Assembly (NCBI GenBank): GCA_944324365.1
Contig: CALUWA010000008.1
Span: forward strand, 1 to 52,512
Reading direction: 5' to 3'
DNA length: 52,512 nt
From: Candidatus Gastranaerophilales bacterium
GTDB taxonomy: Bacteria > Cyanobacteriota > Vampirovibrionia > Gastranaerophilales > Gastranaerophilaceae
Part shown: positions 13,024 to 13,397 of the stretch, in pieces
How positions within the stretch are numbered: the first letter of the stretch is position 1
How the letters are laid out: every line of letters begins with the position of its first letter
Notes under the pieces: generated by a model
Seen by the model: the letters and a program-made list of their open reading frames with translations, nothing else
Told to the model about the DNA's origin: nothing
Databases searched by the model: none
Translations under genes and position numbers: made by a program

Positions 13024-13320
13024 AATTCTGGGATGAGGCACTCTGCCGACGAGAAAGATTAAGTATCTTTCGAGGAGAGGAAGGTAGCGCAGCTACCGCG
13101 TCAAATCCCGATGACAATCAAATATTCTGGGACGTGGCACTCTGCCGACGAGAAAGATTGAGTATCTTTCGAGGAGAGGAAGGTAGCGCAGCTACCGCGT
13201 CAAATCCCGATGACAATCAAATATTCTGGGACGTGGCACTCTGCCGACGAGAAAGATTAAGTATCTTTCGAGGAGAGGTAGGTAGCGCAGCTACCGCGTC
13301 AAGTCCTGACAAATCCAGAA
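13024..13320. repeat. Three ~99-bp tandem repeats leading in phase into a tRNA gene
   Basis: Units are at 13024-13123 (100 bp), 13124-13222 (99 bp) and 13223-13320 (98 bp), almost identical apart from a few bases and a changed last 20 bases in unit 3. Each starts ATTCTGGGA, and the same ATTCTGGGAC sits at 13321-13330, overlapping the 5' end of the tRNA. Each unit has two perfect hairpins, GAAAGAT/ATCTTTC and GGTAGC/GCTACC. The unit also shares GGTAGCGCAG with the tRNA D-arm and has a T-arm-like AAATCCCG. There are no unique spacers, so it is not CRISPR. The rest of 12926-13538 shows no gene. Confidence 0.85.
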
Positions 13321-13325
13321 ATTCT

Positions 13326-13397
13326 GGGACTGTGGCGCAGCGGTAGCGCAGGGGACTCATAATCCCTTGGTCGTGGGTTCGAATCCCTCCGGTCCCA
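13326..13397 (+). tRNA. tRNA with CAU anticodon (Met, or Ile if lysidine-modified)
   Basis: The 72-base sequence folds as a cloverleaf. The acceptor GGGACTG pairs with CGGTCCC (one G-U), the D-arm is GCGC..GCGC-like around AGCGGTA, the anticodon loop is CTCATAA, and the T-arm contains GGTTCGAATCC. The discriminator is A, and CCA is not encoded. The anticodon is CAU. Deciding between elongator Met, initiator and Ile2 needs comparison with the genome's other CAU tRNAs. Its 5' end continues the phase of the tandem repeats upstream. Confidence 0.92.

Follow-up and report, generated by a model that had tools for sequence, protein, structure and literature searches.

A contig of Candidatus Gastranaerophilales carries an intact tRNA(CAU) gene that is directly preceded by a tandem array whose units contain pieces of the same tRNA. 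What these units are, and how they came to lie next to the gene, was addressed by computational analysis of a stretch of 52,512 nucleotides (the window) and of related public genomes. The arrays appear to be built around a core which is probably a short, hairpin-forming, non-autonomous insertion element of the Gastranaerophilales, similar in kind to REPs and small dispersed repeats (SDRs).

Anatomy of the array at tRNA(CAU)

The array consists of three 99-bp direct repeats arranged head-to-tail on the forward strand (13025-13321; TRF score 530), directly 5′ of the tRNA gene at 13326-13397 (forward strand; ARAGORN; Rfam tRNA, 68.9 bits). The 5′ end of this gene reappears in every unit. Units 1, 2 and 3 span positions 13025-13123, 13124-13222 and 13223-13321, respectively. 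A sequence-only reading of the window had placed the unit starts at 13024, 13124 and 13223; the latter two were borne out while the first unit begins at 13025. That the repeats are in phase with the tRNA was also correct, given the presence of ATTCTGGGAC at 13321 just 5′ of the gene. Units 2 and 3 are 97% and 86% identical to unit 1, and unit 3 is divergent at its 3′ end.

Each unit starts with a copy of tRNA nucleotides 1-12 (GGGACGTGGC in the unit vs GGGACTGTGGC in the gene), which is followed by a 41-nt core, 2 nt, a second hairpin whose 5′ strand is provided by GGTAGCGCAG (nucleotides 18-27 of the tRNA), and finally a short strand that can form a closing stem with GGGA. The core hairpins (ACTCTGCCGA-stem-GAGAGG) are located on the forward strand at 13040-13080, 13139-13179 and 13238-13278; all three match the core pattern, and that of unit 1 is in addition supported by covariation. 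The second hairpins (GGTAGC-GCA-GCTACC) lie on the same strand at 13083-13097, 13182-13196 and 13281-13295, all three being assigned from sequence and folding. The two hairpins per unit that had been noted were thereby confirmed, and the piece GGTAGCGCAG was indeed found in every unit and in the D-arm of the tRNA, of which it forms nucleotides 18-27. Predicted RNA folding of the units is more stable than that of shuffled sequences (z -2.9 to -4.0). The previously noted T-arm-like stretch, AAATCCCG, occurs in units 1 and 2, with AAGTCCTG in its place in unit 3. Because it is absent from most congeners, AAATCCCG is better taken as the 3′ strand of the closing stem than as a T-arm remnant.

Alignment of units and tRNA places the core where the tRNA has about five D-loop nucleotides, i.e., the pentamer GCAGC at 13337-13341 (forward strand), in agreement with the rule found over 161 unit/target combinations (see below). 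ARAGORN called the terminal gene only and none of the units, which are devoid of a complete cloverleaf, an anticodon and a T-arm. The idea that the units derive from duplicated and rearranged tRNA sequence therefore holds for their flanks, where nucleotides 1-12 and 18-27 occur in order; it does not hold for the core, the most conserved part of the unit, which does not come from a tRNA and is found again, in both orientations, at many other genes.

A σ70-like promoter (TTGATT-N17-TAAATT; 12922-12950, forward strand) was read from the sequence 5′ of the whole array. In congeners, whether or not they have units, a comparable TTGATT-N17-TARATT motif is found 5′ of the orthologous tRNA. As the units are situated between promoter and tRNA, they would be transcribed as a tRNA leader, and the position of the promoter is compatible with the earlier suggestion of a structured RNA processed together with the tRNA. 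The -35 element of this promoter is overlapped by the stop codon of a gene for a nucleotidyltransferase-domain protein (12251-12925). Between promoter and unit 1, the segment 12951-13020 (forward strand; fold z -2.5) may contain a degenerate unit devoid of a recognisable core, as judged by inspection from a weak resemblance of GGAGAAGTGGC to tRNA nucleotides 1-12. Directly 3′ of the tRNA, a pair of genes for a ParD-like antitoxin and a ParE-like toxin is located at 13527-14070 (Pfam PF03693 and PF05016).

Structure and distribution of the core

Cores are 41-47 nt long and comprise the invariant feet ACTCTGCCGA and GAGAGG, their invariance being partly built in by the search pattern, and a stem that varies freely in sequence yet remains base-paired. 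In an alignment of 32 distinct 41-nt cores, 94.6% of the cells pair vs 80.8% after shuffling, the covariation score is 0.382 vs 0.114, and all ten stem pairs change on both sides. Likewise, 38 distinct 45-nt cores yielded 91.3% vs 76.4% pairing and covariation scores of 0.372 vs 0.102. The 45-nt cores often have a G-G mismatch in mid-stem (alignment A2, columns 17 and 33), where 18 of the 38 rows are unpaired. There is also a second class of cores, AAGRACTCYG-stem-ATRGAGG, which has apical loops in common with the first (L032, L038, L231, L250, L276-L287).

Strong stem covariation and invariant feet, together with folding z-scores of about -3 to -4, are what one would expect if the units were a functional structured leader RNA, i.e., a three-way junction with an invariant motif that is co-transcribed with the tRNA and regulates it, is co-processed with it, or is freed as a small RNA. 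The promoter located 5′ of the units at this locus and in congeners points in the same direction. On the other hand, G-U pairs account for merely 19 of 1275 pairs (1.5%) in core stems, compared with 5.6% in the tRNA acceptor stems of the same loci. The three-way-junction appearance of the units is imperfect but recurrent, and the signal from the closing stem is weak (sense arrays: own, -11.3 kcal/mol vs swapped, -9.9 kcal/mol).

Within the window the core is restricted to the array, with a chance expectation of 0. A search of the window genome with the core pattern revealed 11 copies in six places, and a DNA search detected related pieces on other contigs of the same assembly. All five sites besides the window array are linked to tRNAs or tRNA fragments: three are located 5′ of tRNA-Leu(GAG), tRNA-Pro(CGG) and tRNA-Ile(GAT), one is antisense at the end of tRNA-Leu(CAA), and one, at the end of a contig, lies in an incomplete tRNA-Pro-like copy. 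The core was present in 135 of 145 sampled genomes of the family, with 0-88 copies each, and the reversed pattern, used as control, gave 0 matches. Among 386 genomes of the phylum, well-formed copies were confined to this family and to a single genome of a sister family, in which they are also located 5′ of tRNA-Met(CAU) and tRNA-Leu. Public records containing the core belong almost exclusively to Candidatus Gastranaerophilales or to unnamed gut MAGs or bins.

Similarity between cores is 0.657 for different tRNAs of one genome and about the same, 0.644, for one tRNA compared among congeners. For one tRNA compared across genera it is lower, at 0.566, and close to the background of 0.554. The likeness within genomes favours repeated spread within lineages over gene-by-gene inheritance.

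Targets and proposed insertion sites

The neighbourhood of 115 cores was determined in additional loci taken from public genomes. A tRNA gene is present within 500 nt downstream of 62 of them (49 sense, 13 antisense), compared with 126 of 1600 random positions, and two have a tRNA solely upstream. Core sites are mainly found just 5′ of sense tRNA genes; others are at antisense tRNA 3′ ends, in antisense 5S rRNA (two loci, confirmed by Rfam) and in a dispersed repeat of about 180 bp. Cores are mostly in sense at tRNAs for Met, Leu, Pro, Lys, Val, Thr and Ile, while antisense cores occur at Phe, Glu, Arg and one Leu tRNA. In the first unit, the gene copy usually starts exactly at the mature end of the tRNA or no more than a few nucleotides from it, namely the 5′ end in sense arrays and the 3′ end in antisense arrays. 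Units range from about 84 to 139 bp and contain no genes.

A common rule emerged from 161 distinct unit/target combinations. In 95 of the 101 that could be assigned, the target resumes right of the core after loss of 4-6 nt (mode 5), and the lost pentamers include GGAAT, GTAGC, GCAGC, GGAGC (GGAGY) and similar sequences. Assignment was possible for 63% of the real pairs vs 12% of pairs with swapped targets; 60 of the 161 combinations are without clean right-hand continuity.

These data bear on the first idea put forward for the array, namely that tRNA genes were duplicated in tandem in the ordinary way and then decayed, their arms being rearranged into the hairpin. The ordered tRNA segments within units and the start of the first copy near the mature end are in line with it, as is a Thr unit which retains an anticodon stem with a shortened loop. 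It is nevertheless very unlikely to account for the arrays, given that the same non-tRNA core occurs at many tRNA isotypes and in 5S rRNA, that swapped targets are so much less often assigned, and that cores inside the ~180-bp repeat, which is not a tRNA, already contradict it.

Sites with and without core were compared directly. In one genus, the conserved tRNA-Tyr/tRNA-Thr(GGU)/tuf region is unit-free in eight genomes, with gaps of 10-42 nt, and holds 1-3 cores in gaps of 112-443 nt in others. Similarly, the number of units 5′ of the ortholog of the window's tRNA is 0, 1, 2 or at least 3 among congeners, in each case with a similar promoter upstream. Variation in unit number, which the sequence-only reading had proposed as a check, is thus present among relatives. 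The ~180-bp repeat (TTTCATATAGTCAACTG..CCCACTCAGACA) is present in tens of copies in another genus of the Gastranaerophilales and has relatives in others (L506-L525, L276, L245). Near-identical copies of it contain either an intact ACTTC, ACTCC or GCAAC or, at exactly that position, a core. Cores of the second class behave in the same way. The ~180-bp repeat has no Rfam match, and strand-specific RNA folding did not reveal a clear strand bias (z -1.7 vs -0.9).

The promoter data differ between the two orientations. Promoter-like sites are enriched 5′ of sense arrays (score difference of 6.4 standard errors), which again favours a leader RNA, whereas the core strand of antisense arrays shows no promoter enrichment. 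Taken with the copies in antisense tRNA ends, 5S rRNA and the dispersed repeat, the latter result argues against RNA function as the main cause. Moreover, a leader RNA would have to serve many different tRNA isotypes and to be dispensable at the many orthologous loci of the same genus that are devoid of units. We therefore consider this explanation unlikely for the arrays as such, although the units of sense arrays may have a role at the RNA level. A recurrent motif, TTGAAAATTNAATA, is found just 5′ of units and tRNAs in the spacers of sense arrays (e.g., L041, L237, L024) and is possibly a leader or processing signal.

The ends of tRNA genes are classic integration sites, and a duplicated end restores the gene that is hit. 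The arrays could on these grounds be attachment-site relics or decoys of tRNA-targeting integrative elements or prophages, and one core-like hairpin is in fact flanked by tail genes on a Mu-like phage contig (L126, 3448-3493). This was the sole well-formed copy among the viral matches listed: most matches of an initial wide viral scan were due to chance, filtering by folding left one, and two stricter core patterns had no match among the listed IMG/VR stretches. In view of this single match, the small gene-free units and the 5S and repeat targets, such an origin seems highly improbable.

The core as a proposed insertion element

The copies in antisense orientation, in 5S rRNA and in the dispersed repeat argue for the core being an element at the DNA level, and a short insertion element remains the preferred explanation. 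The core stands in for about five nucleotides of a tRNA D-arm, of a tRNA T-arm on the opposite strand, of 5S rRNA genes in antisense, or of further sequences. At tRNA and 5S genes it is found within a shortened copy of the gene end, and an intact copy adjoins it, so that the gene should still work; the gene end may be duplicated together with the insertion. The unit would subsequently multiply by tandem duplication, and units of sense arrays, including those of the window, would be transcribed as a tRNA leader and removed during 5′ processing. We infer that movement might involve a recombinase acting on the folded single strand, and that the core RNA may be devoid of a function of its own. Several points speak against insertion: the search for mobilisers (below) yielded no enzyme, about a third of the unit/target pairs are without clean right-hand continuity, the preference for RNA genes and the three-way-junction appearance could reflect RNA function instead, sites without a core could in principle have lost it, and the composite repeat copies could have been copied along with their cores.

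More tentatively, the cores might represent a new class of micro mobile element, in which a folded strand of about 41-47 nt replaces a GNARY-like pentamer in tRNA or 5S genes, a coupled duplication of the mature end spares the essential gene, and some novel enzyme or host process moves the strand. If the core is an insertion element, one bacterial lineage harbours a tiny hairpin that repeatedly invades essential tRNA and 5S genes with an intact copy kept alongside.

Genes for potential mobilisers were searched in 21 genomes. Y1 transposase (PF01797) is encoded in five, reverse transcriptase RVT_1 (PF00078) in eight and IS110 transposase (PF02371) in two of them, and core copy number was not tracked by any of the three. 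PF01797 is absent from the high-copy genomes G349, G137, G103, G100, G041 and G077, and PF00078 from the window genome and from G097, which has 88 core copies. A guide arrangement like that of IS110 bridge RNA was considered for the guide-like look of the flank copies and dropped: most of the genomes have no IS110, and ordinary stems account for the complements. Templating of the unit's complementary strand by the intact gene was dropped as well, because the closing stem and a third hairpin explain that strand.

Rfam 15 at gathering threshold returned solely tRNA, 5S and LSU rRNA, hence no family for unit or core, and a search of the window region at relaxed threshold gave chance-level matches. 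By-eye comparison with hammerhead, T-box and k-turn motifs showed that the conserved nucleotides do not fit. As no description of the core repeat was found in the literature searched either, the core is, as a dispersed element, new to both. In annotating these gut genomes, tandem arrays that lie 5′ of tRNA genes should be labelled neither as tRNAs nor as CRISPR-like repeats.

The cyanobacterial SDRs, described by Elhai et al. in 2008 (a study cited in PMC3733652), are reportedly tiny mobile repeats of the same phylum that move by an unknown mechanism. They are not known to form tandem arrays of partial tRNA copies. REPs are very short, palindromic, dispersed repeats that are lineage-specific, variable in copy number between related strains and foldable as single strands (PMC3116915, PMC3733652). 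The core resembles REPs and REPINs in being a short palindrome dispersed in many intergenic copies, but differs from them in several respects. Its feet, which the search pattern fixes and which read ACTCTGCC and GAGAGG across 148 distinct units, carry no unpaired GTAG or CGTC tag, GTAG near cores being nothing but adjoining tRNA sequence; it does not require a Y1 (RAYT) transposase; its tRNA-linked arrays are head-to-tail direct repeats and not the inverted doublets of REPINs; and it prefers tRNA and 5S genes, where it replaces a pentamer next to a duplicated gene end. How CGTC REPs move was left open (PMC3733652), and the multicopy ~180-bp repeat with its filled and empty sites offers a ready system for studying how very small palindromic elements move. 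IS110 bridge RNAs and IS200/IS605 ends share with the core hairpins and guide-like copies of the target flank, but most high-copy core genomes are devoid of a corresponding transposase. Finally, the palindromic elements of Rickettsia, of which the R. conorii RPE has been placed among the CGTC-tagged repeats (PMC3733652), are also palindromes inserted into existing genes; they differ in sequence and tag, and the core element keeps an intact gene beside the insertion.
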